From Massilia cavernae (GTDB lineage Bacteria > Pseudomonadota > Gammaproteobacteria > Burkholderiales > Burkholderiaceae_D), in contig NZ_QYUP01000124.1 of NCBI RefSeq assembly GCF_003590855.1, forward strand, positions 1-64,000: a stretch of DNA of 64,000 bases, written 5' to 3'. Position numbers and translations under genes: made by a program. The notes beneath the pieces were generated by a model. It was given only the letters and a program-made list of their open reading frames with translations, did no database searches and was not told the origin of the DNA. Positions 11,429-53,815 of this stretch are shown here, piece by piece. How positions within the stretch are numbered: position 1 is the stretch's first letter; every line of letters starts with the position of its first letter.

Positions 11429-11971
11429 ATGCGTGTCCACCTGGTGCGCCACTTTGCGCCGATGGTCGCTGCGGGAATTTGCTATGGCCGCAGCGATCTC
11501 TCTGTCGATCCGGAACTGCATGCGCGCTCGCTGCCGGCATTGCGCGCCCAACTTCCAGCCGGCGCCCCGATAATTTCAAGTCCGCTGCGGCGCTGCGCGA
11601 CGCTGGCCGTGGATCTGGGTGGCGAGGTACGTTTCGATGCGCGCCTGGCCGAACTCGATTTCGGCCGCTGGGAGATGCGACACTGGGACGACATACCGCG
11701 CGCCGAGGTCGATGCATGGGCTGCCGATGTTGCTCGATACCGGCCGGGCGGCGGCGAAAGCGTGCTCGATATGGCGCAGCGCGTGTCGGACTTCTACGCG
11801 GGCCTGATGCGGGAACCGGTGTCCTCGGCGGTGGTGGTCTGCCACGCCGGCGCGATACGCCTGCTGGCAGCCCGCCAGCGCGGACTCTCCCCATTGGAAA
11901 TGGCGTACGAGGCGGCGCAACGGCCCCACGCAATCGGCTACGGCGAAGTAATAGTCCTCGACTGTGTATAA
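11429..11971 (+). CDS. cobC: Alpha-ribazole phosphatase-like histidine phosphatase
   Basis: A 180-residue histidine (phosphoglycerate mutase-like) phosphatase, placed right behind cobS as CobC enzymes often are; it should remove the 5'-phosphate of alpha-ribazole phosphate or adenosylcobalamin phosphate. The catalytic RH pair is in HLVRHFAPM near residue 8, SSPLRRC gives the second phosphate-binding Arg, ELDFGRWEMR carries the family Glu, and VVVCHAGAIRLL holds the second His. The usual RHG is RHF here, a conservative variant in CobC-like proteins. Its stop codon overlaps a TATAAT that may serve the downstream riboswitch transcript. Confidence 0.88.
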   Translation: MRVHLVRHFAPMVAAGICYGRSDLSVDPELHARSLPALRAQLPAGAPIISSPLRRCATLAVDLGGEVRFDARLAELDFGRWEMRHWDDIPRAEVDAWAADVARYRPGGGESVLDMAQRVSDFYAGLMREPVSSAVVVCHAGAIRLLAARQRGLSPLEMAYEAAQRPHAIGYGEVIVLDCV

Positions 11972-15221: not shown

Positions 15222-15991
15222 TCGAGACGCAAAAACTGACACTCAGGGCCGGAACCCGCACGCTGGTCGACAAGCTGGACTGGCATGTCCGCGCCGGCGA
15301 ATGCTGGTGCATCATCGGCCGCAACGGCGCCGGCAAGAGCACGCTGATGCGCACGCTGGCCGGCCTGCGCGGCCCGGATGACGGCGTGGTCTCGATGCAG
15401 GGCCGCCCGCTGTCGCAATGGCCGCTGCCAGAACTGGCTCGCAGGCGCGCCTTCCTGCCTCAATCGCGCAGCGACGCGTTTGCCTACCGCGCCATAGAAA
15501 CGGTGCTGGCGGCGCGCCATCCCTACCACGCCAACCGCTACTGGGAAGGCAGCGACGACCACGTCATCGCACGCGCCGCGCTGGAATCGATGGAAGTGCT
15601 CGACCTGGCCGATCGCGACGTACGCACCTTGTCCGGCGGCGAGCGCCAGCGGGTGGCGATCGCCGCCATGCTGGCGCAGGATACGCCGCTGCTGCTGCTC
15701 GACGAACCGGCCAACGCGCTCGACCTTGCACACCAGTCGAGCGTCATGCGCCTGCTCGCCCGCCTGTGCCGCGAACAGGGCAAGACGGCGGTCATGATCG
15801 GACACGACCTGGGCCATGCGCACCAGGCGTCGACCCACGCACTGCTGCTGATGGGCGATGGAGAATGGCAGGCCGGCACCGTCGCCGACATGATGCAGGC
15901 TTCCGTCCTGAGCCGCTGCCTTGGCCACCCGATCGAAGTCGTCAGCCATGGAACACGCCGTATTTTCATCCCCACAGAGGAATTCGCATGA
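15218..15991 (+). CDS. btuD: Vitamin B12 ABC transporter ATP-binding protein
   Basis: ATPase of 257 residues for the BtuCDF importer. Walker A is GRNGAGKSTL near residues 30-39, the signature is LSGGERQRVAIAAML, and Walker B is PLLLLDEPANALD. The ATG at 15218 overlaps the btuC stop as ATGA, indicating translational coupling. It is also coupled to cobO by another ATGA overlap at its end. The larger open frame that extends upstream inside btuC is not coding. Confidence 0.94.
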   Translation: MIETQKLTLRAGTRTLVDKLDWHVRAGECWCIIGRNGAGKSTLMRTLAGLRGPDDGVVSMQGRPLSQWPLPELARRRAFLPQSRSDAFAYRAIETVLAARHPYHANRYWEGSDDHVIARAALESMEVLDLADRDVRTLSGGERQRVAIAAMLAQDTPLLLLDEPANALDLAHQSSVMRLLARLCREQGKTAVMIGHDLGHAHQASTHALLLMGDGEWQAGTVADMMQASVLSRCLGHPIEVVSHGTRRIFIPTEEFA

Positions 15992-24062: not shown

Positions 24063-26276
24063 TCACGGTTTTAGTAGCTGAGTGGTCACCTTGGCGCTGC
24101 CCGTAAGACCGGTGTCGGCCGCATCGGTGCTTACCGAGACAGCGTACTCGCCGGCCGCGATGCGCCAGCCATGCGCAACACTATCGAAGTTCGCCAGGAG
24201 GCGCGGGTCGGCCGCCAGGGAGATACGCTTCTGTTCGCCCGGAGCCAGCTCGACCTTGTCGAAACCGATCAGACGCGTCAGTGGCTTGCCAGCCGCCGAG
24301 CGCAGATAGACTTGGGGCACGTGGGCGCCAGTTCGTTCGCCGGTATTCTTTACCGTGAAGCTGACCATCAGGGTCTTGCCTCCCTTCACCTTCAGATCCG
24401 ACATAGCGAAACTGGTGTACGACAGGCCGTGACCGAACGCGAACAGCGGCTTCGCACCGGTCCTGGCGAACCAGCGGTAACCCACATCCGATCCTTCCGG
24501 GAACTGGATCTCATAGCTGCTGTCCGGTGGCAGTCCGAAGCCCGGCAGTTGTGGGCGAGGTAGTTGGCTCTCAGAAACCGGGAAGGACACAGGCAGGCGG
24601 CCCGACGGGTTGACACGGCCGAAGAGCACGTCAGCGATCGCGGCCGCGCCATGCTGCCCCGGGTACCAGGACTCCAGCACCGCCGCTGTCTGCTCAAGCC
24701 AAGGCATGGCCACCGCGTTGCCAGTCTCGAGCACAACCACGGTACGCGGATTGGCCGCCGCCACCGCAGCGATCAGCGCATCCTGGCCTTGCGGCAAACT
24801 GATGTCCGGCGTGTCTTCATTCTCGCCATTCCATTGGGTGCCGAACACGATCGCCACGTCGGCGTTGCGCGCCAGCTCGGCTGCGGCGGCAGGATAACGC
24901 CCGTCATCAAAGACGACCTCGGTCTTGTCTGCCAATGTTCGGATCGCTTCCAGCGGACCGGGGCCGAACCATACCGCGCGGCGGAAGAACTGGTCCATTG
25001 GCCTATTGCCCCCCAGGTTGACGACGTACTGGGCTCCCGCAGGAGTCACCTGCGACGAGCCGCCGCCCGACAGCACCCCCATGCTGGCGTTGCCGCCGAT
25101 GACGGCGATGCGCTTCAGCGTGGGGGATAGCGGCAGCAGCTTGTCCTGGTTGCGTAACAGGACGATGCCTTCGGCCGCAACGCGCTGAGCTACCGCACCA
25201 TGCGCCGCCAGATCGATCGGCGCGGGGCCGGCCGGATGGTCGAACAAGCCATTGGCGAACATCGAGCGCAGCACGCGCGTGACCATGTCCGAGATGCGCT
25301 CTTTGGAAACCGCACCTGACGCGACCGCGTCACGTAAGGGGGCACCGAACCACACCTGCTTGTCCAGTTGTTCGCCAGACTGGTGGTCCAGCACCTTCGC
25401 GGCATCGACCGACTTAACAGCCCCCCAGTCCGACATCACCCAGCCCTTGTAGCCCCAGTCACCTTTCAGCACTTTACCCAGCAGGTATTCGCTGTGACAA
25501 GCCTGGGCGCCGTTGACGACATTATAGGCACACATGACCGAGCCCGGTTGGCCGCGTTCGATTGCCAGCTGGAAGGCCAAACCGTCGCTTTCGCGGAACG
25601 GCGCGTCCGCGATGACGGCGTTGTAGGTATTGCGGCTGATTTCGTAGTTGTTCAAGGCAAAGTGCTTGACGGTCGAGACCACGTGCGCGCTCTGGACGCC
25701 GGCGATTGAAGCGCCGGCCATGACGCCGGTGAGCCAGGGGTCTTCACTCAGATATTCGAAGTTGCGGCCGCCGCGCGGGTCGCGTGCCAGATTTGCACCG
25801 CCGGCCAGCAGCACATTAAAGCCCTTGGCGTGCGACTCCTGGCCGATGGCGGCACCAGCGGCGCGTGCCAGCGCCGGGTTCCACGTGGCCGCCAGCGCCT
25901 GGCCGGACGGCATTGCGGTGGCGTGGTCGCCCGGACGCAAGCCAAGCGGGTTCACGACGCCCAGGCTGGCATCGCTTTGCGCCAGCGCTGGGATACCCAA
26001 GCGCGCGATACCGGCAACGTAGCCGGCGGTGAACGGGGCGCCCTGCGGGCGCTGGAAAGGCCCCATGTCGAGCGACATCGGACTGTGCACCAGGCTAAAG
26101 CGCTCATCCATCGTGAGCTCGCGCTCGAGCAAGTGTGCGCGCTCGTCGGGCGAGAGCGTAGTGTTCATCCATGCCGGCTCGGCGGTGGCGGAATTCACGA
26201 CGGCCAGTGCGCAGCAAGCCAGCACGGCGCGGTACAGCGCGCCAATGGAGTTCGGAATCGGGTGGGTTTTCTTCAT
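24063..26276 (-). CDS. Glycoside hydrolase family 3 (beta-glucosidase-like), exported
   Basis: Secreted or periplasmic glycosidase of 737 residues from ATG 26276, where GGAAC lies just upstream; in-frame upstream Mets add only a basic stretch. A signal peptide ends NSATA-E near residue 33. The GH3 N-terminal barrel has DPRGGRNFEYLSEDP, VKHFALNNYE and the nucleophile Asp in GWVMSDWGAV (about residue 283). The C-terminal domain holds the acid/base region and a fibronectin-III-like end (KNTGERTGAHVPQVYLR). It should release glucose or xylose from beta-linked oligosaccharides taken up by the adjoining TonB receptor. It is the last gene of a three-gene minus-strand group. Confidence 0.9.
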   Translation of the reverse strand: MKKTHPIPNSIGALYRAVLACCALAVVNSATAEPAWMNTTLSPDERAHLLERELTMDERFSLVHSPMSLDMGPFQRPQGAPFTAGYVAGIARLGIPALAQSDASLGVVNPLGLRPGDHATAMPSGQALAATWNPALARAAGAAIGQESHAKGFNVLLAGGANLARDPRGGRNFEYLSEDPWLTGVMAGASIAGVQSAHVVSTVKHFALNNYEISRNTYNAVIADAPFRESDGLAFQLAIERGQPGSVMCAYNVVNGAQACHSEYLLGKVLKGDWGYKGWVMSDWGAVKSVDAAKVLDHQSGEQLDKQVWFGAPLRDAVASGAVSKERISDMVTRVLRSMFANGLFDHPAGPAPIDLAAHGAVAQRVAAEGIVLLRNQDKLLPLSPTLKRIAVIGGNASMGVLSGGGSSQVTPAGAQYVVNLGGNRPMDQFFRRAVWFGPGPLEAIRTLADKTEVVFDDGRYPAAAAELARNADVAIVFGTQWNGENEDTPDISLPQGQDALIAAVAAANPRTVVVLETGNAVAMPWLEQTAAVLESWYPGQHGAAAIADVLFGRVNPSGRLPVSFPVSESQLPRPQLPGFGLPPDSSYEIQFPEGSDVGYRWFARTGAKPLFAFGHGLSYTSFAMSDLKVKGGKTLMVSFTVKNTGERTGAHVPQVYLRSAAGKPLTRLIGFDKVELAPGEQKRISLAADPRLLANFDSVAHGWRIAAGEYAVSVSTDAADTGLTGSAKVTTQLLKP

Positions 26277-26413
26277 TGTAAGTTCCATGTGTCGTTTGTT
26301 GTTGCGAAAATTGGAAGAGTCAGAGCATGAACGTGTTGAACGAATCTGCCGGCAGAGCCACTGCGAACACGCGGTCACGAATAGCAAACCGAATCGGCAG
26401 GTCTTGCCGCAAA

Positions 26414-28543
26414 TTAGAAACCGACGTCCACACGAACGCCGGCGGTACGCGGCGCGCCAAGCCCTGCCCTGCGAACCGAGTAAGACGTTAATACGGTCTG
26501 GTCCTCGATGTTTCGGATATAGCCTTGCACATACCAGTTGCCCGTAGCCGAAAAATAGGTCAACGTCGCGTCGCTCTTATGGAATCCGCCCTGGCGGTAC
26601 TGCGTTCTGGTGTCGAAGTCGCTAATGAAGTAGGCGCTCGTATAACGGGTGCCTACATGAGCGCTGAGTTCGGCGCCGCTTTCCATCGCCCAACGGTGGT
26701 CGTAGCCCAGTCCCAGCGTGGCGCGTGGCGATTTGTCGAGGCGGAGGCCAGACCAGTCGATGTTCTGGGCTGGCATATAATCCGCATAGTGTGCATCCAG
26801 GTAGGTGGCCGAAAAATTGATGCGACCATTGCTGGTCACGGCATACTTGCCTTCGAGCTCCAGGCCGGCAATCTTCGCCTTGGCGGCGTTGCGAGTCTGA
26901 CTGGTCACACCGCCGTTGATAGGATCCTCTACGATCGACGTCAGCTGCAGATCGCGGTAGTTGTAGCCGAACAGAGCGGCGCTCGTCTGCAGCCGACCGT
27001 TGAGCATGCGTCCCTTGATACCCACCTCGATTGCCGTCAAATGTTCGGGAGCGTAGGTCAGGAAAGGGTTGGTGGCGCGCGTCCCGTCGTTGAAGCCGCC
27101 GGCCTTATAGCCGGTCGATGCAGTAACGTAGGCCATGATGTTCTTTGCCAAGGCATAGTCTACGCTGAGTTTACCGGTGGTCTGGGCATAGTTGACGGCC
27201 GCATCGTTGACCCCGCGCGCGATTACGGGATCGCCGATGATCGTGTAACCTTGCCGCGACTTCTCGTCCTTGGTACGGCGCAAACCCAGAGTCAAATGCA
27301 GGTCTCCGCTCAGATCAATAGTGAGGTCGCCGAACGCCGCCTTCGACGCCGACACGGTCGGATCCTGGATAAAGGCCAGGCGGCCCAGGCCGGGATAATT
27401 GACGAACTCGACATCGATGTGCGAGCTTTCACGGAACCAGTACAAACCGAGAATCGACTTGAGCGCGCCATGCTTTGACGCCAGCCGCAGCTCGTGCGAG
27501 TTTTGCGTATAGCCTGCCAGCGATGAGCCGAAGGGCGCCGGGTTGCTCAGGCCAAACCCAAGCGGCGTTATCTCGTCGCGGTCGAAGCTTCGATGCGCCC
27601 CCTGATAGGTCAAGGTTCCGACGTCGAGCGTCGCGTTCAGTTCAGCGCTGTATCCGTTGGCCTTGTTATCGATCCGCCCTTGGACGGTTGGCGTCGCGGT
27701 GCGCTGGGCGTCACCGCTCTGCGTTTGAAAAGTTTCCATGGGCACGTTACCTGGACCGGCGCCCCTGGTCTTGCTGGTATCGGCGCTCAGCAGCAAAGTG
27801 ACATCGGGAGCAAACTTGAAAAGTGCATGTACGCGCCCGGAAAGTGAGTCTTGGTCATCATAGTTGCGCGCCAAGCCCTGCGTCGAGCGCAGATAGCCAT
27901 CGTGCTTGCTGCTTGACACTGCAGCACGCAGTGCGAGCGTCTCGTTGACAGGGACGTTCAGCATCGCGTCAACGATGCGGGTGTCGTAGTTCCCCATCTG
28001 AAGCGCTACGTTGCCTTCGAATCGACTGCCGGGTTTGTTTGTGATCAGGTTGACGGCGCCAGCCGTGGCGTTGCGGCCATACAGCGTGCCTTGCGGGCCG
28101 CGCAACACCTCTATCCGCTCCAGGTCGTAGAACGCAATGCCGGCTGACTGTGGCCGGGCCAAGTTCACGCCATCGATATTGAAGGAGGCCGAGGGATCGC
28201 CTTTTTCCGTGTTGTCGGCGCTGCTGACGCCGCGAATTGCAATTTCCATCGCGCCACCGTTGTTTGCAATCTGTACGTTGGGTACGAGATCGGTCAGGCT
28301 GGCGGCATTCATCGCGCCTGCGTTTTTCAGGTCGTCCCCCGACACCACGCTGAGCGCCAACGGAGTCTTCGACGCCGGTTGCGCGACACGCTGCGCGGTG
28401 ACAATAACCTCTTGGATGGCGCCTGCAGAGGCGTCGGATTGCTCCTGGCCAGCGGCCTGGGTGGGCGCCATTACCGCGCCGGCAAGGAAGATCGCCACGG
28501 CCGAGGCGATGGTGTGTCGTTTGAATCCGGTATGCTCCAACAT
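26414..28543 (-). CDS. TonB-dependent receptor (carbohydrate-type)
   Basis: Outer-membrane transporter of 709 residues. Signal peptide ends near PTQAA-G, the TonB box is QEVIVTAQR, the plug contains VPNVQIANNGGAMEIAIRGV and LYGRNATAGAVNLITNKPG, and the barrel ends with an aromatic Phe (GVRVDVGF). The plug style (NIDGV, ERIEVLRGPQGTLYGRNA) is that of receptors for oligosaccharides or plant compounds rather than siderophores, but the ligand is inferred from the neighbouring GH3 and sugar transporter. It is followed by the GH3 gene after 137 nt and preceded by the MFS gene by 155 nt. Confidence 0.92.
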   Translation of the reverse strand: MLEHTGFKRHTIASAVAIFLAGAVMAPTQAAGQEQSDASAGAIQEVIVTAQRVAQPASKTPLALSVVSGDDLKNAGAMNAASLTDLVPNVQIANNGGAMEIAIRGVSSADNTEKGDPSASFNIDGVNLARPQSAGIAFYDLERIEVLRGPQGTLYGRNATAGAVNLITNKPGSRFEGNVALQMGNYDTRIVDAMLNVPVNETLALRAAVSSSKHDGYLRSTQGLARNYDDQDSLSGRVHALFKFAPDVTLLLSADTSKTRGAGPGNVPMETFQTQSGDAQRTATPTVQGRIDNKANGYSAELNATLDVGTLTYQGAHRSFDRDEITPLGFGLSNPAPFGSSLAGYTQNSHELRLASKHGALKSILGLYWFRESSHIDVEFVNYPGLGRLAFIQDPTVSASKAAFGDLTIDLSGDLHLTLGLRRTKDEKSRQGYTIIGDPVIARGVNDAAVNYAQTTGKLSVDYALAKNIMAYVTASTGYKAGGFNDGTRATNPFLTYAPEHLTAIEVGIKGRMLNGRLQTSAALFGYNYRDLQLTSIVEDPINGGVTSQTRNAAKAKIAGLELEGKYAVTSNGRINFSATYLDAHYADYMPAQNIDWSGLRLDKSPRATLGLGYDHRWAMESGAELSAHVGTRYTSAYFISDFDTRTQYRQGGFHKSDATLTYFSATGNWYVQGYIRNIEDQTVLTSYSVRRAGLGAPRTAGVRVDVGF

Positions 28544-28698: not shown

Positions 28699-29988
28699 CT
28701 ATGCGGTGCCGTAGTCGCGCGGGTACAGCGCCCTGTACTTCAGACCATAAAACAGGATGAAGGCGTAACAGGCCAGCGGTACCAGGAAAGAACTGCGGAG
28801 GCCGGCATTGTCAGCGACAGCCCCCTGCAGGAAAGGCAGTACGGCGCCGCCGACGATCGCCATGCACAACAGGCCCGCTCCTTCGCCGCTACGCTGACCG
28901 AGGCCGTGCAGCGCCATGGCGAAGATCGTGGGGAACATGATGGCGTTGCAAAGTCCAACGGCAAGGAGCGACCACATCGCCACTGCGCCGCGACTGCCGA
29001 TGGCGCACGCGATCAGGAGCATGGCGCCGACAGCACTGCATGCCAGTACCTTGCCTGGGCTGACATTGCGCATCACGGCGAAGCCGATCAAGCGACCGAC
29101 CATGGCGCCGCCCCAGTAAATACTGACATAGCCGGCGGCCGTCGCAGGCCCCAGTGATGCGACCTCGTGATCGCCAAGAAAACTGATCAGGAAGCTGCCG
29201 ATACTGACTTCGCCGCCGACGTACAGGAAAATGGCCAACACACCGTATAGCAGCGGACGATGGGCCAGCAGCGGCGCCCCTTTCTCTTTCCCGATGGAGG
29301 CGGGGCTGGCGTGCTTCAGTTGCGGCAGCTTGATCAGGGCGAACATCAGTGCCAGCGCCAATAGCAAGAGCGCCAGTATCAGGTAAGGACCTTCCACGGC
29401 TTGCGCCTGGTGCAGGCGGTAAGCAACCCGGTCCGCTTCCGCCAGGTGTGTCACGCGCTCCGGCGATTGGACCACGTCGGACAGGATCAATATGCCTCCC
29501 AACGTCGGCGCGACTGCCGTTCCGAGCGCGTTGAACGCTTGCGTGAAGTTCAGGCGACTGGACGCGGTTTCCGGCCTGCCAAGTGCGGCAACGAAGGGAT
29601 TGGCTGCGACCTGCAGGATAGTGATGCCGGAAGCCAGCACGAAAAACGCGAACAGGAACATGGCGTAAGTGCTGCGCGCGGCCGGATAGAACAAGGCGCA
29701 ACCGAGTGCGGCGGTCAGGAGGCCGGCCACCGCGCCGCGCTGATAGCCTATGCGGCGCACCAATATGCCCGCTGGCAGGGAGACGAAAAAATAGGCGCCG
29801 AAAAAGCAGAACTGCACCAGCATGGCTTGCACGTAGCTGAGTGTGTAGACCGATTTCAGGTGAGGAATGAGGACATCATTCAGAGAAGTCAACAGACCCC
29901 ACATGAAGAACAGTAGCGTAATAATCGAAAGCGGGCCGTGGCTGGTCGCTTGGGCAGATTTTAAGTGAATCGATGACGTCGTTGGCAT
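28699..29988 (-). CDS. MFS sugar transporter, FucP/GluP (FHS) family
   Basis: Twelve-helix inner-membrane proton symporter of 429 residues. Family features: LFFMWGLLTSLNDVLIPHLK in helix 1, QAMLVQFCFFGAYFFVSLPA in helix 2, GITILQVAANPFVAALG and NFTQAFNALGTAVAPTLGG. These match L-fucose and glucose/galactose symporters. The ATG at 29988 is preceded by CAGGAGA at 5 nt, better than the longer upstream frame. It should bring the monosaccharide released by the GH3 enzyme into the cytoplasm and is first in the minus-strand group. Confidence 0.9.
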   Translation of the reverse strand: MPTTSSIHLKSAQATSHGPLSIITLLFFMWGLLTSLNDVLIPHLKSVYTLSYVQAMLVQFCFFGAYFFVSLPAGILVRRIGYQRGAVAGLLTAALGCALFYPAARSTYAMFLFAFFVLASGITILQVAANPFVAALGRPETASSRLNFTQAFNALGTAVAPTLGGILILSDVVQSPERVTHLAEADRVAYRLHQAQAVEGPYLILALLLLALALMFALIKLPQLKHASPASIGKEKGAPLLAHRPLLYGVLAIFLYVGGEVSIGSFLISFLGDHEVASLGPATAAGYVSIYWGGAMVGRLIGFAVMRNVSPGKVLACSAVGAMLLIACAIGSRGAVAMWSLLAVGLCNAIMFPTIFAMALHGLGQRSGEGAGLLCMAIVGGAVLPFLQGAVADNAGLRSSFLVPLACYAFILFYGLKYRALYPRDYGTA

Positions 29989-30135
29989 GCGGTCTCCTGT
30001 TTTTTGATCCCGGCATCCGGGCAATTTGGCGGACATTAACATAACGAAAATCCTTGCGCCATGCATCCTATTTTTTTGAACAAATTTACTAAGTAATTGG
30101 TTATAAAGGATTTATTTTTTCTAGACCATCTTCTA

Positions 30136-30152
30136 TGTAACATATGTTTACA
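30136..30152. promoter_or_regulatory. Imperfect palindrome in the divergent MFS / binding-protein region
   Basis: TGTAACATATGTTTACA has inverted arms TGTAA/TTACA. GTTTACA occurs again at 30176-30182, 30 bp away. The region 30067-30382 is unusually AT-rich for this genome and separates the two divergent transcripts, so these could be binding sites for the response regulator encoded downstream. A TATAGT at 30318-30323 could be the -10 for the binding-protein gene. Confidence 0.35.
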
Positions 30153-30382
30153 ATCCGCCGCCCGCTCGCCGGTCCGTTTACACTATGTCGCACAGCTGGT
30201 TCTTGCAGCTTTTCCTGACTCTGGCGGTTGTAACAAAACGCAATAAAACAATCACCTTTGTTGCTTGCATTTGTACTCGATTCGCAACGTTTTCGGGATC
30301 TGCCGTGGTATTTGCTGTATAGTCAGAATTCTGAAAAATTCATTTCCTAAGGATGTCGTACTAACTAGTTGGATCGATATTT

Positions 30383-31672
30383 ATGCGAGGACAGAACTGT
30401 TTGCACCGTATAGCCGTTGCGGTGTCACCATGGGCCTGGGTATTGGTATCAAATTTCTGCCTGCCTCTGACAGTTGCTGCCCAGGCGCAGGAGCTGCGCG
30501 TTCTGCACTGGTGGCGATCGCCGGGAGAGCGCCTTGCTTCGGATATGCTGGCGGCCGAGGCGCGCCGGGCACAGATCGGATGGCGCGAAATCGACGTTGG
30601 GGACGGCTTTGGCGCGGGCATCGTCCTGCGCAGCAGGATCCTGTCGGGCGACCTTCCCGACGTGGTGCAAGTGAACAGCTTGAGCGTACCCAGCTGGGCG
30701 CTGCTGGGGCAGATCGTCGCACTCAACGATGTGGCTGAATCGAGCAATTGGAACGCCACGCTATTGCCGGCCGTTTCACGCATGATGCGGATGGACGGCC
30801 AGATGCGCGCCGCCCCTCTCGGCGTCCACCGGGTTAACACACTGTTCTATAACCGCAGGCTACTGGCGAGACTGCGCCTCCGCACGCCCCACACCTGGGA
30901 TGAATTCGAACGCGTCGCCGAACGCCTGCGGCGCGCCGGCGTCGTACCGCTGGCGCAGAGTAGTGAGCCATGGCAGATCGTCCTTCTGTTTGAAAACCTG
31001 TTGCTGGCGCAGGCTGGGGCCGGGTTTCATGGCAGAGTTTTTCTTGGCGCCGACGAATCCGCGTTGGCCGATCCAGACATGGCCCGGGCACTGTTGCAAC
31101 TGCGCCGGCTGAAACGGTGGATGCCTCAGCCGGTTCCCGAACTCGACTGGCCAACCGTAACGCGGCAACTGGCCGCTGGCGGTGCCGCCATGATGCTGTC
31201 GGGCGACTGGGCCAAGGGTGAGCTGAATGCCGCCGGCCTGGTCACCGATCGTGAATTTGGCTGCACGGCGGCTCCCGGTACCGCTGCCATTCACCTGTAC
31301 GATCTCGACGCCCTGGTCATGCTGCGTTCGCGGCAGCCGGTGCGAGATGCACAGCGCAAGCTGGCACAGATCGTCCTCTCGTCGACATTGCAGAATCGCT
31401 ACAATCAGCTCAAGGGATCGGTTCCGGTGTTGCGGAGGCCGGACCGCGCTTCAATGGACAGCTGCGCCCGTGCCTCTTGGGACCTGTTGGCGCAGCCGAA
31501 CGCCGTACTGGTGCCAAGCTACACGGCAGGCACGTCGGGCAATGAGGCCATGCGCAGCGTACTCATCGACGAGCTGCACCGCTTTTTTATGGACGACCAG
31601 ATCGACGTCCTGGATACCCAACGCCGGCTGATCAAAGCCTGCAGTGCCATCAAGAAGGCCCGCCTGCCATGA
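30383..31672 (+). CDS. Sugar-type extracellular solute-binding protein, coupled to a two-component system
   Basis: A 429-residue periplasmic protein of the MalE-like class: signal peptide ending AAQA-Q near residue 35, then ELRVLHWWRSPGERLA, VVQVNSLSVPSWALLGQIV, APLGVHRVNTLFYNRRLLA and AAMMLSGDWAKGEL, which match ABC sugar-binding proteins. No ABC permease or ATPase is near; its stop overlaps the response-regulator start as ATGA. This favours a role as periplasmic ligand sensor for the histidine kinase of the operon rather than as a transport part. Ligand unknown, probably the same sugar handled by the divergent genes. Confidence 0.85.
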   Translation: MRGQNCLHRIAVAVSPWAWVLVSNFCLPLTVAAQAQELRVLHWWRSPGERLASDMLAAEARRAQIGWREIDVGDGFGAGIVLRSRILSGDLPDVVQVNSLSVPSWALLGQIVALNDVAESSNWNATLLPAVSRMMRMDGQMRAAPLGVHRVNTLFYNRRLLARLRLRTPHTWDEFERVAERLRRAGVVPLAQSSEPWQIVLLFENLLLAQAGAGFHGRVFLGADESALADPDMARALLQLRRLKRWMPQPVPELDWPTVTRQLAAGGAAMMLSGDWAKGELNAAGLVTDREFGCTAAPGTAAIHLYDLDALVMLRSRQPVRDAQRKLAQIVLSSTLQNRYNQLKGSVPVLRRPDRASMDSCARASWDLLAQPNAVLVPSYTAGTSGNEAMRSVLIDELHRFFMDDQIDVLDTQRRLIKACSAIKKARLP

Positions 31673-32382
31673 AGCGCAAGATTCTCGTCGTCGACGACGA
31701 CCAAAAAATCCGCACACTGCTCAAGACCTACCTCGAAAAAAACCAATTCGAAGTCATCCTTGCTCACGACGGTTCGTCTTTTCGCAACATGTTCGAGCGC
31801 GAAAACGACGAACTTTCGCTGATTGTCCTGGATGTCATGCTGCCGGATACCGACGGCTTCAGTCTGTGCCGCTTCGTTCGCCAGAGCTCGAATATTCCTA
31901 TCATCATGTTGACCGCAAGTTCGGGCGAGACCGACTGCGTGGTCGGCCTCGAGCTGGGGGCCGACGACTACATGGGGAAACCCTGCAGTCCGCGCGAGCT
32001 ACTTGCCCGTATCAAGGCAATCCAGCGCCGGGTCGGGATCGAATCCGCCGCCGCGCCGCGCTACTTCCGCTTCGCAGGCTATACACTCGACATCATCGAA
32101 CGCACCTTGTGCGACTTCGAAAACGCATTGGTGCCGCTGACCGGATTGGACTTCCAGCTATTGAAATGCTTCGTCGAGCGGCCAGGTGATGTCCTTGAGC
32201 GCAACCAGCTGCACGAGGCCACGCGCGGGCGCGACGCCGGCCCCCATGACCGGTCGCTCGATGTACAGATCAGCCGCCTGCGTACGCGCCTGAACGACGA
32301 TGGTCGTGACATACCGCTGATCAAGTCCGTGCGTGGCATCGGCTATGTGTTCTCGGCCGACGTGCGCAGCACCGATGCCTAG
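31669..32382 (+). CDS. OmpR-family response regulator
   Basis: A 237-residue regulator with a receiver domain (acidic pocket DDD at 9-11, phosphorylated Asp55 in LIVLDVMLPDTDGF, Lys in GADDYMGKP) and a C-terminal winged helix (RGRDAGPHDRSLDVQISRL and RGIGYVF). It starts inside the end of the solute-binding protein gene and overlaps the kinase start by 8 nt, so all three are translated together. Likely targets are the divergent MFS/TonB receptor/GH3 genes and its own operon. Confidence 0.93.
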   Translation: MKRKILVVDDDQKIRTLLKTYLEKNQFEVILAHDGSSFRNMFERENDELSLIVLDVMLPDTDGFSLCRFVRQSSNIPIIMLTASSGETDCVVGLELGADDYMGKPCSPRELLARIKAIQRRVGIESAAAPRYFRFAGYTLDIIERTLCDFENALVPLTGLDFQLLKCFVERPGDVLERNQLHEATRGRDAGPHDRSLDVQISRLRTRLNDDGRDIPLIKSVRGIGYVFSADVRSTDA

Positions 32383-33847
32383 CCGCTGGCCCCGGCGGCT
32401 GGATGCCGCACTGCCGCAGACCTTGCTTGGACGGCTGACCGCTGCGCTGGTGGCGGCGGTCCTGTTGAGCCAGGTTGTCGGCAATCTGATTTGGAGCACG
32501 CAGAGCACCGTGAAGGCCGAGGCCGAAACCCGGGGCGCCGCCCAGTCGATCGCGTACAGTGCCGCCGGTGCTATACGCTTTTTCCTGAGTCTATCGCCCA
32601 GCTACCATCAAATCATCATTCAACAGTTCCGTGAAATGGGCGGCACCCGTTTGTTCGCCACGATCAACCGTGCACCGATCAACATCGCCGCAATCGACGA
32701 GCAACCGCTGGCCAGCCTTGCCATCCGTCAGGTCAGCGCGACGCTGACCACGGCATTGCCGAGTGTCCGCAGGATTCATGTCGCCTTTGCCTGGCCAAGG
32801 CAACTTCAGGTCAGCGATGCCGGTACAATGATCGCCGATCTCCCTGACAGCTGGGTACAGCACATCGTATTATCCAAAACCGAGCCTGCACCGATCCTGG
32901 TGATCCAGGTGGAGCTGGCGCGGGATCGCTGGTTGTACCTAGCGACACTGATGCCAAATCCATACTTCCTGGGCAATGGGAATCTGCTCACCAGTGAGCG
33001 ACTGATATTGCAGGGCATGACATTGATGTTCGTGTTGGCGGTAACGATCTTTGTCGTTCGCAGGTCCATCTATCCGCTGGCCGAATTGTCGACTGCGGCG
33101 GAAGCATTCGCGCGAGGCGAGCCTGTGCCGCTTTTGCCGCAGTGCGGCAGCAAGGAGTTCGTCAGCACAGCGCGCGCCTTCAGCGCAATGCGCGAACATA
33201 TTCAAGGCTATATCGAAGACCGGGAACGGCTGTTCGTAGGGATTTCGCATGATCTGCGTACCCCCATCATGCGTTTGAGGCTGCGTGCAGAGCTACTCAA
33301 CGATGACGACGCGCGTGTAGAATTCCACGAGGATCTCGACGAACTGGACATGATGCTCAAGGCCGCCCTGCAGCACGTTCAGGATAGTAATATTCACGAG
33401 AACATGACTAATATCAGGCTTGATGTACTGCTGGCCCGGATGGTGCGCGACGCCAGACTGGCCGGACACGTCGTGGCTTATGGCGGCACGGAACTAAGCG
33501 TGACGGCGAAGCCGCTCGCTCTCAAGCGCGCGATCGGCAACCTGCTGGACAACGCACTGCACTACGGTTCCCGGGTGGAGATTGTAGCGCGCGGATCAGA
33601 GGGCGATATCTCTATCGAGATCCGCGACCACGGCCCGGGCGTTCCGACCGAAGCCCTGGAGGCACTGTTTGACCCGTACGTTCGACTCGATCATGGCCGC
33701 CAAAGAAACAGTGGCGGCATGGGACTGGGCCTCGGCATTGCACGCCGGCTGGTTCAAGGCATGAGTGGAAAGCTCGTGCTGGTGAATCATCCGGCGGGAG
33801 GACTATCTGCCACCATCGTGCTCGCGGCCGGCACGGCGGATGCGTGA
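32375..33847 (+). CDS. Sensor histidine kinase (EnvZ-like topology)
   Basis: A 490-residue inner-membrane kinase from the ATG at 32375. Membrane segments are at about 18-38 and 208-228, leaving a periplasmic domain of about 170 residues that could dock the solute-binding protein. A HAMP linker follows, then His292 in LFVGISHDLRTPIMRLR, an N box RAIGNLLDNALHYG, and DHGPGV and GGMGLGLGIA for ATP binding. It is the last gene of the coupled three-gene operon. Confidence 0.92.
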   Translation: MPSRWPRRLDAALPQTLLGRLTAALVAAVLLSQVVGNLIWSTQSTVKAEAETRGAAQSIAYSAAGAIRFFLSLSPSYHQIIIQQFREMGGTRLFATINRAPINIAAIDEQPLASLAIRQVSATLTTALPSVRRIHVAFAWPRQLQVSDAGTMIADLPDSWVQHIVLSKTEPAPILVIQVELARDRWLYLATLMPNPYFLGNGNLLTSERLILQGMTLMFVLAVTIFVVRRSIYPLAELSTAAEAFARGEPVPLLPQCGSKEFVSTARAFSAMREHIQGYIEDRERLFVGISHDLRTPIMRLRLRAELLNDDDARVEFHEDLDELDMMLKAALQHVQDSNIHENMTNIRLDVLLARMVRDARLAGHVVAYGGTELSVTAKPLALKRAIGNLLDNALHYGSRVEIVARGSEGDISIEIRDHGPGVPTEALEALFDPYVRLDHGRQRNSGGMGLGLGIARRLVQGMSGKLVLVNHPAGGLSATIVLAAGTADA

Positions 33848-33887
33848 CCCGGCTGCCGGATGACATTAATTGGATGGTTGTGGAAGC

Positions 33888-34500
33888 TCAGTGCAAAGAT
33901 TTCAGTGTGCGCAATATGCGTTCGACCCGACGACCATACGGCGGTTGAAAGGCACTGAATGAATTCCAGCGAGACTGGATAAACACGGGCTTCTCCTTGC
34001 TGAAACTGAGAAAACCGTATTCGCCATGATAGCTGCCCATGCCGCTGGCGCCCACGCCCCCAAATGGCAGGTCCTCGTGCGTCACATGCCAGCGCTTCAT
34101 CCAGCGTGTCGTACGCCATCACGGGCAACAGTGGACCGAAAATCTCTTCTCGCATCAAATCCATGTCGTTGTTCGCGTTGATGACCATCACAGGTGATAG
34201 CTTGCGATCACTAGCCCCTTGGCCCTCTTGCCGGGAAAGTGGCACGATCTCTCCTCCTTTTTCTTTGGCGTCACTCAACAATCGAAGCAGACGGTCATAG
34301 TGACGAGGAGAGACAATGCTTGTGTAATCCGGGTTCCCGCAATCGAAGGATACAAAGTGGCAACAGCGTTCTGCATGGCCTGCGCGAACTGATGCACGTG
34401 CTCACGCGGCACAAGCACGTAATCAGGGGCCGCACAAGTCTGGCCGGCGTTGGGCTTGCTATCTGCCGCCTTTCCTTGCGCAACCCAGGCCGGCGCAGAT
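33888..34500 (-). pseudogene. Aldehyde dehydrogenase (coniferyl-aldehyde type), decayed
   Basis: Minus-strand pieces in order: NAGQTCAAPDYVLVP with the catalytic Cys, then after a one-base loss NPDYTSIVSPRHYDRLL and LLSDAKEKGGEIVPLS, then MREEIFGPLLPVMAYDTLDE, then after a deletion of about 50 codons with a frame change HEDLPFGGVGASGMGSYHGE and RRVERILRTLK. The N-terminal half is missing and the gene breaks off next to the tRNA. It is a true relic: several lesions of different kinds, unlike the single-base errors elsewhere. The family resembles coniferyl aldehyde dehydrogenase; this is inferred from sequence style. Confidence 0.85.
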
Positions 34501-39846: not shown

Positions 39847-40215
39847 ATGATTCAAACTGAAAGCCGGCTCGAAGTGGCCGACAATACTGGTGCCAAAGAA
39901 GTCATGTGCATCAAGGTATTGGGCGGTTCCAAGCGCCGTTATGCTGGCATTGGCGACGTGATCAAGGTAACCATCAAGGTTGCTGCGCCACGCGGCCGTG
40001 TCAAAAAAGGTGAAATTTATAACGCCGTGGTTGTGCGTACCGCTAAAGGTGTGCGCCGCCAAGACGGTTCGCTGGTGAAGTTCGACGGCAACGCCGCCGT
40101 TCTGCTGAACGCCAAGCTCGAACCGATCGGTACCCGTATTTTTGGACCAGTCACGCGCGAACTGCGTACTGAGAAGTTCATGAAGATCGTGTCCCTGGCA
40201 CCTGAAGTTCTGTAA
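39847..40215 (+). CDS. rplN: 50S ribosomal protein L14
   Basis: 122 residues beginning [19 protein letters not shown]; forms intersubunit bridges with 16S rRNA and is the site of RsfS binding in other bacteria. First gene of the spc operon, behind its own promoter. rplX follows after 9 nt. Confidence 0.98.
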
Positions 40216-40224
40216 GGAGTCGTA

Positions 40225-40539
40225 ATGGATAAGATTCGTAAAAACGACGAAGTCATCGTTCTGACCGGCAAAGACAAGGGCAAGCGTGGCGTGGTTCAGA
40301 AGCGTGTAGACGCTGAACACGTCGTGGTTGAAGGCGTCAACGTCGCTAAAAAAGCGACCAAGCCTAACCCAATGACCGGCGTAACTGGTGGTATCGTCGA
40401 TAAGACTATGCCGATTCACGTGTCCAACGTTGCCCTGTTCAATGCAGCGACTGGCAAGGCAGACCGCGTAGGCTTCAAAGACGTAGACGGCAAGAAAGTC
40501 CGCGTTTACAAGTCCTCCGGCGAAGTAGTGAAGGTTTAA
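40225..40539 (+). CDS. rplX: 50S ribosomal protein L24
   Basis: 104 residues with the KOW motif near the start ([20 protein letters not shown]); assembly initiator of the 50S subunit. It ends 2 nt before rplE. Confidence 0.97.
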
Positions 40540-51725: not shown

Positions 51726-52454
51726 ATGGATACTCCCTCTACTATTCTCATCGTCGACGACGACCGCGACATCCGTTCACTGCTGGCCGACTACCTCGAG
51801 GCCAACGGCTACCGCGCCCTGGTTGCGCCCGACGGCGCCGGCATGTGGAAGGCGCTCGACGACGCGCGCCCCGACCTGATCGTGCTCGACCTGAACATGC
51901 CGGGCGACGACGGCCTGACCCTGTGCCGCAAGCTGCGCGCCACCTCGACCATGCCGGTGATCATGCTCACCGCGCGCAGCGAACCGCTCGACCGCATCCT
52001 CGGCCTCGAGATGGGCGCCGACGACTACCTGCCCAAGCCGTTCGAACCGCGCGAGCTGCTGGCCCGCATCCGCAGCGTGCTGCGGCGCAGCCACGCGATG
52101 CCGTCGAACACCCCGTTCGACAACGCCCAGCGCATGCGCTTCTCCGGCTGGACGCTCGACCTCACCGCGCGCCACCTGATCAACCCGGACGGCCTGGTGA
52201 TCATGCTGTCGGGCGCCGAGTTCCGCCTGCTGCGCGTGTTCCTCGAGCACCCGAACCGCGTGCTCAACCGCGACCAGCTGCTGAACCTCACGCAGGGCCG
52301 CGACGCCGACCCGTTCGACCGCTCGATCGACATCCAGATCAGCCGCCTGCGCCAGAAGCTGGGCGAGGACGCGCGCCTGCCGCAGATCATCAAGACGGTG
52401 CGCAACGGCGGCTACGTGCTGGCGGGGCAAGTTACCGTGGAGCCAGGCGCATGA
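51726..52454 (+). CDS. OmpR-family response regulator (envelope-stress type)
   Basis: 242 residues. Receiver domain with the acidic pocket DDD at 11-13, phosphorylated Asp55 in LIVLDLNMPGDDGL and Lys in GADDYLPKPFEPREL; C-terminal winged helix with TQGRDADPFDRSIDIQISRL and RNGGYVLAGQ. Overlaps the kinase gene (ATGA). The operator-like repeats upstream suggest it regulates itself and the Spy-like gene, and perhaps the RND pump after it. Confidence 0.93.
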   Translation: MDTPSTILIVDDDRDIRSLLADYLEANGYRALVAPDGAGMWKALDDARPDLIVLDLNMPGDDGLTLCRKLRATSTMPVIMLTARSEPLDRILGLEMGADDYLPKPFEPRELLARIRSVLRRSHAMPSNTPFDNAQRMRFSGWTLDLTARHLINPDGLVIMLSGAEFRLLRVFLEHPNRVLNRDQLLNLTQGRDADPFDRSIDIQISRLRQKLGEDARLPQIIKTVRNGGYVLAGQVTVEPGA

Positions 52455-53815
52455 GGGCGTTCTTCGGATCGATGACCGGGCGCGTGTTCCTGACCCTGCT
52501 GCTCGGTACCGTATTCTCGGCTGCGCTGACCCAGCTGCTGGCCGAGGCCGAGCGCCAGCGCGTGATCTCGGATTTCCGCAGCATCCATGCGCTCGACCGC
52601 GCCGAGCAGCTGATCACGGCCGCCGAAATCGTGCCCGCCTCGGCGCGCCTGGCCTACCTGGGCGTCGCCAACCGCCCCGGCATACGGCTGGAAGAAGTGA
52701 CCGGCGCGCTGCCGGTGGCGCCGCAGCACTCCGAATTCACCGCCGCGCTGGCCCAGCGCATGGGCAAGGGTTACCAGTTCGCGACCATTGCCGCGCGCCC
52801 GAAGGAATGCGATATCCCGCGCCCCCAGTCCAGCATCTTCGGGCCGAAGGAAGCGCTGTGGAAGGGCGCCTGCGAAAGCATCGACGTGAACCTGCCCGAC
52901 GGCGGACGGCTGCGCCTGCAGATCCTGCCGCCGCCGCCATCGGTACTGGCCACCGAGACCGACTACCGCCTGATCATCGCGCTGTTCCTGGGCAGTATCG
53001 CGGTCCTGGCCTACCTGGTCGCGCGCATGACCACGCGCCCGCTCAAGCAGCTGGCGCAGGCGGCGAAAGATCTCGGCAACGACATCAACCACCCGCCGCT
53101 GGTGCTCGAAGGCGCCAGCGAGATTCGCCAGGCCAGCGCCGCCTTCAATGCCATGCAGGCGCGCATCCGCCAGTACATCGCGCAGCGCACCCAGATGCTG
53201 GCCGCGATCACCCACGACCTGCAGACCCCGCTGACGCGCATGCGCCTGCGGCTGGAAAAGGTCGGCGACCACGATCTGCAGGAGCGCCTGATCGGCGACC
53301 TGTCGGCGATGCAGCAAATGGTGCGCGAAGGCCTGGACCTGGCGCGCAGCACCGACAATACCGAAGCGATGCAGGCGCTCGACCTCGACTCGCTGCTCGA
53401 CAGCGTGTGCTCGGACGCCACCGACGCCAGCCAGCGGGTGGCGCTGCACGGGCGCGCCGGCATGGCCGTCATGGGCCGCCCGCTGGCCTTGCGGCGCTGC
53501 CTCGCCAACCTGATCGACAACGCGGTCAAGTACGGCAACCAGGCCGAACTGACCGTCGAGCGCGCGGCCGGCGCCGCGCGCATCCGCATCCGCGACCGCG
53601 GTCCCGGCATCGCCCGCGACGAGCAGGCGCGCGTGTTCGAGCCGTTCTACCGCGTCGAAAGCTCGCGTTCGCGCGAGTCGGGCGGCACCGGCCTTGGCCT
53701 GCCGATCGCACGCAATATCGCGGAGCAGCACGGCGGCAGCGTCACGCTGGCCAACCACCTCGACGGCGGGCTGGAAGTGACCCTTGTGCTGCCCCAGGCT
53801 TATCCCGGTAAATAA
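52451..53815 (+). CDS. Sensor histidine kinase (EnvZ/RstB-like)
   Basis: 454 residues from ATG 52451. Membrane segments at about 10-30 and 172-191 frame a periplasmic domain of about 140 residues. HAMP follows, then His255 in QMLAAITHDLQTPLTRMRLR, then CLANLIDNAVKYG (N box), RDRGPGI and GGTGLGLPIARN. The H-box region is EnvZ-like. Its partner is the regulator encoded in overlap before it. RND genes follow after 72 nt. Confidence 0.93.
   Translation: MRAFFGSMTGRVFLTLLLGTVFSAALTQLLAEAERQRVISDFRSIHALDRAEQLITAAEIVPASARLAYLGVANRPGIRLEEVTGALPVAPQHSEFTAALAQRMGKGYQFATIAARPKECDIPRPQSSIFGPKEALWKGACESIDVNLPDGGRLRLQILPPPPSVLATETDYRLIIALFLGSIAVLAYLVARMTTRPLKQLAQAAKDLGNDINHPPLVLEGASEIRQASAAFNAMQARIRQYIAQRTQMLAAITHDLQTPLTRMRLRLEKVGDHDLQERLIGDLSAMQQMVREGLDLARSTDNTEAMQALDLDSLLDSVCSDATDASQRVALHGRAGMAVMGRPLALRRCLANLIDNAVKYGNQAELTVERAAGAARIRIRDRGPGIARDEQARVFEPFYRVESSRSRESGGTGLGLPIARNIAEQHGGSVTLANHLDGGLEVTLVLPQAYPGK

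Follow-up and report, generated by a model that had tools for sequence, protein, structure and literature searches.

Why should the gene for a periplasmic sugar-binding protein stand directly in front of the two genes of a two-component system, with no permease beside it? This question is raised by a locus of Massilia cavernae lying in the 64,000-nucleotide stretch analysed here (the window), in which genes for a solute-binding protein (SBP), a response regulator (RR) and a histidine kinase (HK) run divergently from genes for a major facilitator superfamily (MFS) sugar symporter, a TonB-dependent receptor and a GH3 glycoside hydrolase. Comparison with related loci makes it rather probable that the three genes encode a three-component sugar sensor, in which the kinase, with the sugar-loaded SBP docked on it, would act through the regulator on the MFS-TonB-GH3 operon. 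The genes and the predicted operator sites of the locus are as follows.

30383..31672, plus strand: SBP gene; SBP_bac_1/SBP_bac_8 (Pfam), glucose-binding-protein type, proposed dedicated sensor.
31669..32382, plus strand: RR gene; OmpR-type with Response_reg and Trans_reg_C (Pfam), GltR homologue, phospho-acceptor Asp55.
32375..33847, plus strand: HK gene; HisKA and HATPase_c (Pfam), EnvZ-like, GtrS homologue, His292.
28699..30066, minus strand: MFS sugar symporter of the GluP/FucP type, exceeding the TIGR01272 and TIGR00885 cut-offs; first gene of the predicted target operon.
26414..28543, minus strand: TonB-dependent receptor; predicted target operon.
24063..26387, minus strand: GH3 glycoside hydrolase; predicted target operon.
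30138..30154, plus strand: predicted operator TAACATATGTTTACAAT in the MFS-SBP gap; 18.9 bits, the best profile match in the 64 kb.
30227..30243, minus strand: second, weak site of the operator profile; 8.4 bits.

As the initial annotation had it, the SBP stop codon (TGA, 31670-31672) and the RR start codon (ATG, 31669) overlap by 4 nt in the form ATGA, and the RR gene, whose stop ends at 32382, overlaps the HK start (ATG, 32375) by 8 nt; a GTG at 32333 is a possible alternative start of the kinase. Such overlaps are ordinary translational coupling, so the description of these genes as fused has to be given up. The SBP begins with a hydrophobic stretch followed by AQA-QE, with no lipobox recognised by eye. 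In the kinase, hydrophobic stretches at about residues 12-42 and 208-236 flank the periplasmic domain, and the HAMP match falls below the Pfam cut-off. The absence of an ABC (ATP-binding cassette) transporter, also asserted at first, is correct for the locus: tblastn with two sugar-permease types (E up to 1e-3) detected no sugar permease in the 64-kb window, and the two ABC ATPase matches present, at 186-782 (33%) and 15275-15892 (28%), are far from the unit. It is not correct beyond the locus, as 56 of 80 related loci adjoin sugar ABC genes and contig C21 of the same genome carries a complete glucose-type ABC operon with an SBP of its own.

By sequence comparison, the kinase and the regulator are homologous to GtrS and GltR of Pseudomonas aeruginosa, the periplasmic domain of the kinase included. 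The references were taken from an annotated P. aeruginosa record with the gene order edd, glucokinase, gltR, gtrS, SBP, permease, permease, ATPase. The window HK matches GtrS at 36% over 451 residues (E 3e-93, single comparison), the RR is 50% identical to GltR, and the SBP is 34% identical to the SBP of that record. When the window's genome was searched with GtrS, the window kinase ranked first (5e-92), and the runner-up (2.5e-59) aligned with residues 180-469 of 473 only, leaving out most of the sensor; when it was searched with GltR, the window RR came first by a hair, with 215.5 bits against 214.6 for a regulator at 51.7 kb. A profile of 20 periplasmic domains of the unit matched GtrS residues 33-195 (3e-45 in a one-sequence database), and the corresponding domain of the window kinase belongs to the same family as the ligand-binding domain of GtrS. 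Three of 369 genomes sampled across the class contain this domain (E up to 1e-6), one of them being the window's own; the other two have the order RR-HK-SBP, followed in one by permeases and an ATPase and cut in the other by a contig end. A structure model of the kinase had a low predicted template modelling score (pTM, 0.44), and the fold searches made with it returned the kinase core and are uninformative on the periplasmic domain. A second two-component pair near GltR/GtrS (regulator 46%, kinase core 42%) is found in the window at 51726-53815 on the plus strand, flanked by a DsbD-like gene and an AcrB-type pump gene, and has no match to the sensor part of GtrS.

The three genes are a real, conserved and functionally coherent unit. 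Relatives were collected from named genomes, which were scanned with a sensor-SBP alignment, and the 80 loci considered here are the best of 224 confirmed ones; in an earlier fetch of 40 loci, 23 had the SBP, RR and HK of the unit together. All three genes were found in 78 of the 80, always in the order SBP-RR-HK and on a single strand (78/78), and in the remaining two (L102 and L123) the sequence stops close to the SBP or the regulator. The carriers, bacteria of soil and water, are mainly Oxalobacteraceae (Massilia, Telluria, Rugamonas, Duganella, Pseudoduganella, Undibacterium, Collimonas, Janthinobacterium, Herbaspirillum and Glaciimonas), together with Chitinibacteraceae such as Iodobacter, Andreprevotia, Silvimonas and Chitiniphilus.

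The neighbours of the unit vary. In class A (22/80 loci, some cut short by contig ends) it stands beside a glucose-type ABC operon, usually with LamB, and in class B (28/80) beside a second ABC type, accompanied in 14 of the 28 by nag genes. This second ABC type is joined by a TonB receptor in class BC (6/80), and class C (16/80) has a TonB receptor and/or a NagP-like MFS; the class of seven further loci (other/edge) is undecided. The names NagK, NagA, NagB-II and NagP derive from NCBIfam, with nagA above the cut-off and the others below it. Class D, the MFS-TonB-GH3 arrangement of the window, consists among the 80 of L075 from Telluria antibiotica alone (identity to the window 67% for the MFS, 67% for the TonB receptor and 81% for the GH3 enzyme), so that this layout is known from two loci only. 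The window-type MFS is present in 36 of 145 genomes of the family, and two further copies occur in the window's own genome.

In nine of the loci (L111, L117, L128, L133, L139, L136, L141, L142 and L151) a second SBP, of the type SBP_B, has a TonB receptor and a NagP-like MFS as its neighbours. Elsewhere SBP_B comes with ABC permeases and an ATPase; these are missing from the nine loci, which places an SBP next to an MFS importer. Separately, a sensor-like SBP (38%) without regulator and kinase is encoded at L073:7970-9340, in a genome (G057) that also has the full unit.

Judged from its relatives, the window SBP is a member of a sensor clade set apart from transport SBPs. Its nearest solved structures, both by sequence and by fold (searched with a model of mean pLDDT, the predicted local distance difference test, of 85), are glucose-binding proteins, with ppGBP entries first. 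A tree of 63 SBPs, sampling 36 of the 80 sensor loci plus the window and 8 of the 22 adjacent transport SBPs, is divided by one branch into 37 sensor and 26 transport SBPs with a support of 100 in the Shimodaira-Hasegawa-like approximate likelihood-ratio test (SH-aLRT); this was a quick search, which warned of long branches meeting. Within the class A sensors, the window SBP pairs with that of L075 (support 100). The available part of PMC7927077 lists 12 glucose contacts for ppGBP, eight of which the window SBP keeps (W35, W36, E41, Q90, W250, W270, D303 and K339). Among the sensor SBPs, position 301 is S in 50/50 of classes B, BC and C and N, D or T in 22/22 of class A; position 68 is S in 22/22 of class A and A in 46/50 of B, BC and C; at position 92, class A has N and class B has I as well as N. 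This distribution fits a sensor pocket that follows the cargo, with class being confounded with phylogeny. As the pocket is of the glucose/galactose-binding type, the cellobiose, laminarin and xylo-oligosaccharides originally suggested as inducers are not specially favoured.

Control of the transport operon by the regulator, in the window too, finds its strongest evidence in the pattern of predicted operators. The operator profile is 17 bp long (consensus TTACATTTCTTTACAAA) and describes a direct repeat with two TTAC half-sites 10 bp apart; it was trained on relatives, with the window held out. TTACATATCTTTACAAA, chosen by hand from upstream sequences, served as the seed of the motif run, and the window's upstream sequence, though kept from training, had been viewed beforehand. 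An unsupervised motif search had returned AT-rich runs and was discarded. Of 500 dinucleotide shuffles of the upstream stretch, 1 scored as high as the window site at 30138-30154. As the null for the profile, 480-nt stretches were drawn at random from the 80 loci; 95% of them stayed below 9.0 bits and 3.1% reached at least 15, some containing a true site. At the second, weak site of the window, the published GltR consensus GTNACAAA has a match in GTAACAAA (30230-30237, plus strand), but the 17-bp profile does not in turn pick up the gltB promoter of P. aeruginosa.

Sites of at least 14 bits are present in 73 of the 80 loci, eight of the 80 being on training contigs (L078, L083, L087, L088, L091, L092, L103 and L120). 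Every class A (22/22) and class B (28/28) locus has such a site within 420 nt before the SBP. In 50/50 of these loci (seven on training contigs) the highest-scoring site of the whole locus falls within the divergent gap and has the same strand, with two sites of at least 12 bits in 40 of the 50 and three in one. Taking the best site in the whole locus, the same threshold is reached in 6/6 BC, 1/1 D, 13/16 C and 3/7 other/edge loci. Two training loci, L037 and L038, have weak sites of 11.4 and 14.3 bits.

The operator site goes with the transport operon in the relatives, whether this is an ABC operon, a TonB receptor/NagP set or an MFS-TonB-GH3 operon. A strong site precedes SBP_B, NagP or the TonB receptor in the six BC loci and in 12 of the 16 C loci; in a further class C locus, L130, the next recognised gene is 5 kb from the site, and the count of C sites shown beside a transport gene is therefore 12/16. 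In the tandem locus L075 a 24.2-bit site is found at 11520, between kinase and MFS. The strongest site stands before a recognised transport gene in the tandem loci L075, L125, L136, L141, L142 and L151 and likewise, with the unit downstream, in L111, L116, L117, L119, L128, L129, L133, L137, L139, L140, L143, L146 and L153. Each top site in the tandem loci is on the strand opposite to the transport genes, which is the relative orientation seen in the window. Elsewhere in the window, at 40209-40241 on the minus strand and some 6-10 kb from the unit, two operator-profile matches of 16.0 and 11.3 bits abut each other; they may be due to chance.

Several results weigh against the three-component sensor. 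With no more than 2 mismatches allowed, a whole-genome pattern search found 2 matches, of which the site at 30138-30154 is one; because the reversed control gave 1, this search says little alone. Seven of the 80 loci have no site of at least 14 bits (L096, L147, L154, L105, L123, L138 and L144). Five loci of other layouts outside the training set (L036, L066, L069, L071 and L072) have no strong site directly before the SBP, the scores there being 2.0, 6.3, -1.7, 9.8 and 4.9 bits; strong sites occur elsewhere in L069 (identical with L111) and L071 (identical with L130), and the whole-locus scan of L066 (identical with L105) detected none. At the gltB promoter of P. aeruginosa the profile has no match, the maximum of that stretch (4.9 bits) lying elsewhere, and the best site at the C21 operon is weak (9.3 bits, about 190 nt before the transport SBP gene). 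In its match to GltR, the regulator of the unit is barely ahead of the one at 51.7 kb, and four of the 12 glucose contacts are lost from the window SBP (G68D, K92N, N301D and H379A). Two published observations, taken up in the next paragraph, point in the same direction.

Direct sensing by the kinase, with the SBP merely co-expressed (for example, as a periplasmic sugar buffer), would make the unit an ordinary two-component system. We consider this unlikely. Two published findings make it the main rival: 2-ketogluconate is a ligand of GtrS, and an adjacent SBP is sometimes of no use to a kinase. The former compound is reported to bind GtrS directly (KD, the dissociation constant, 5 uM), as is 6-phosphogluconate, in the available part of PMC4081096, and for that reason the window kinase might sense alone. 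As to the latter, the accessible portion of PMC11113362 states that SBP and kinase gene neighbours are not always functionally linked and that no binding to AgtS or AruS was seen for the SBPs of neighbouring genes. The SBP of the unit is nevertheless located directly upstream of regulator and kinase in 78/78 loci, and it is distinct from the SBP of the adjacent ABC operon, whose genes include a transport-type SBP of their own in 56/56 loci (classes A, B and BC). Moreover, the available text of PMC7927077 reports that glucose induction in P. aeruginosa needs the binding protein and can dispense with 2-ketogluconate (2-KG) and 6-phosphogluconate (6PG). There GltB binds the GtrS domain with a KD of 0.1 uM and is required for GtrS activation and glucose induction; three of five GltB pocket mutants abolished induction, and two halved it. 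Given the homology to GltB-GtrS, it is most likely that the sugar-loaded SBP activates the kinase.

A less probable alternative, to which we give little credence, is that the SBP serves in transport for a distant ABC permease, such as that of C21, and came to its present place by chance or through shared regulation, perhaps doing both jobs. GltB does combine transport and signalling (PMC7927077, available part), and a complete related ABC operon exists at C21; since a 9.3-bit operator-like site precedes its SBP gene, joint control of that operon by the window regulator may occur. The C21 operon, however, has its own SBP, only 33% identical to that of the window, and in the tree a branch that measures 1.82 on the sensor side of the midpoint root separates off the sensor SBPs. 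At position 92, moreover, lysine is found in 22/22 adjacent transport SBPs and in 0/80 sensor SBPs. Least likely of all is that the unit leaves the facing operon alone and the motif serves only the autoregulation of the SBP-RR-HK operon, for although in divergent loci the site alone cannot tell target operon from autoregulation, because one gap serves both promoters, the tandem loci named above (L075 and 18 others) have their strongest sites before a recognised transport gene and score no more than 9.7 bits before the SBP, with the exception of L142, which has an additional 15.0-bit site ahead of its SBP.

The three-component sensor thus remains the best-supported reading of the initial proposal of a sugar sensor facing the MFS-TonB-GH3 genes; homology to GltB-GtrS-GltR, gene order and operator all speak for it, and all are comparative. 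It may be envisaged to work as follows. The SBP, a periplasmic member of the glucose-binding family that would no longer take part in transport, would close on a hexose-type sugar, and the loaded protein, by homology with GltB-GtrS, would dock on the periplasmic domain of the GtrS-type kinase. Phosphotransfer from His292 to Asp55 of the GltR-type regulator, the established chemistry of these families, would follow. The regulator would then bind the direct-repeat operator in the MFS-SBP gap, as the comparative evidence suggests, and activate the MFS-TonB-GH3 operon and probably its own. The likeliest signal would be the sugar released by the GH3 enzyme and imported by the MFS, or a close relative of that sugar.

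Periplasmic or extracellular SBPs feed kinases in TorT/TorS, LuxP/LuxQ, ChvE/VirA and XylFII/LytS, whose SBP and kinase families are probably different from those of the window. The first three had been put forward as precedents, but the nearest one found is GltB/GtrS/GltR instead. The unit is a homologue of this published system combined with the dedicated-SBP arrangement of CuaD-CuaS-CuaR. With GltB-GtrS-GltR it shares a homologous kinase, periplasmic domain included, a homologous regulator and an SBP of the same glucose-binding family. In contrast to Pseudomonas, where a single SBP serves ABC transport and signalling in the order gltR-gtrS-SBP-permease-permease-ATPase, the window SBP precedes RR and HK, has no adjacent permease, belongs to a separate clade and faces a predicted MFS-TonB-GH3 target. 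It also differs in placement from the SBP of the GltB-GltFGK uptake system, whose gene is in an operon with permeases and ATPase. What sets the unit apart from Pseudomonas glucose sensing is that the SBP looks dedicated to sensing and that the adjacent uptake system differs between species.

In Ruminiclostridium cellulolyticum, CuaS binds CuaD and not the transport SBP CuaA, according to the available part of PMC10384115. CuaD is a second SBP, for sensing, encoded beside two-component genes and distinct from the transport SBP; the window SBP likewise adjoins two-component genes and is distinct from the transport SBP. The likeness is one of arrangement. The Cua system of this Clostridium relative has a lipoprotein SBP, a YesN/AraC-type regulator and an ABC operon as its target (PMC10384115). 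In LevQRST of Streptococcus mutans, carbohydrate-binding proteins also act together with a kinase and a regulator; this system differs in having two binding proteins and in controlling a phosphotransferase system (PTS) permease and a fructan hydrolase (PMC3043104, available part). Our literature search, which covered titles and the openings of abstracts and in which coverage of subscription papers was partial, found no published description of the SBP-RR-HK unit in these bacteria.

As to the origin of the unit, we lean slightly towards a single duplication of a transport SBP, after which the copy became a sensor-only partner of a GtrS/GltR pair. Kinase and operator would have been kept while the cargo was exchanged among glucose-type ABC plus LamB, second ABC plus nagKAB, TonB receptor plus NagP, and MFS-TonB-GH3, and the SBP pocket would have been re-specialised with the cargo at positions 68, 92, 301 and 379. 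That SBPs can act both in transport and in signalling is, according to the accessible part of PMC9602780, a largely unexplored subject. Sensor clade, transport clade and cargo-linked operator can here be compared over 80 loci with natural cargo swaps, so that SBP-kinase docking and ligand specificity become testable without the transport loss caused by deleting a double-duty SBP such as GltB.

Two further observations were made in passing. Genomes G092 and G141 of the same order encode SBP-chemoreceptor fusions of about 780 aa, without direct bearing on the window, at L203:3095-5431 (plus strand), L204:4099-6426 (minus), L205:4322-6691 (minus) and L206:4724-7093 (minus). They consist of an N-terminal hydrophobic hairpin (recognised by eye), a methyl-accepting chemotaxis protein (MCP) signalling domain and a C-terminal SBP_bac_1/8 domain of the glucose-binding type, with a HAMP match in three of the four, one of these below the cut-off. 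This topology would put the sugar-binding domain in the cytoplasm, an unusual location for an SBP. In the window itself, the reading frame directly behind the kinase gene (33787-34281, minus strand) is a partial aldehyde dehydrogenase matching only positions 325-387 of the Pfam Aldedh profile, and looks like a gene remnant or a frameshifted gene.

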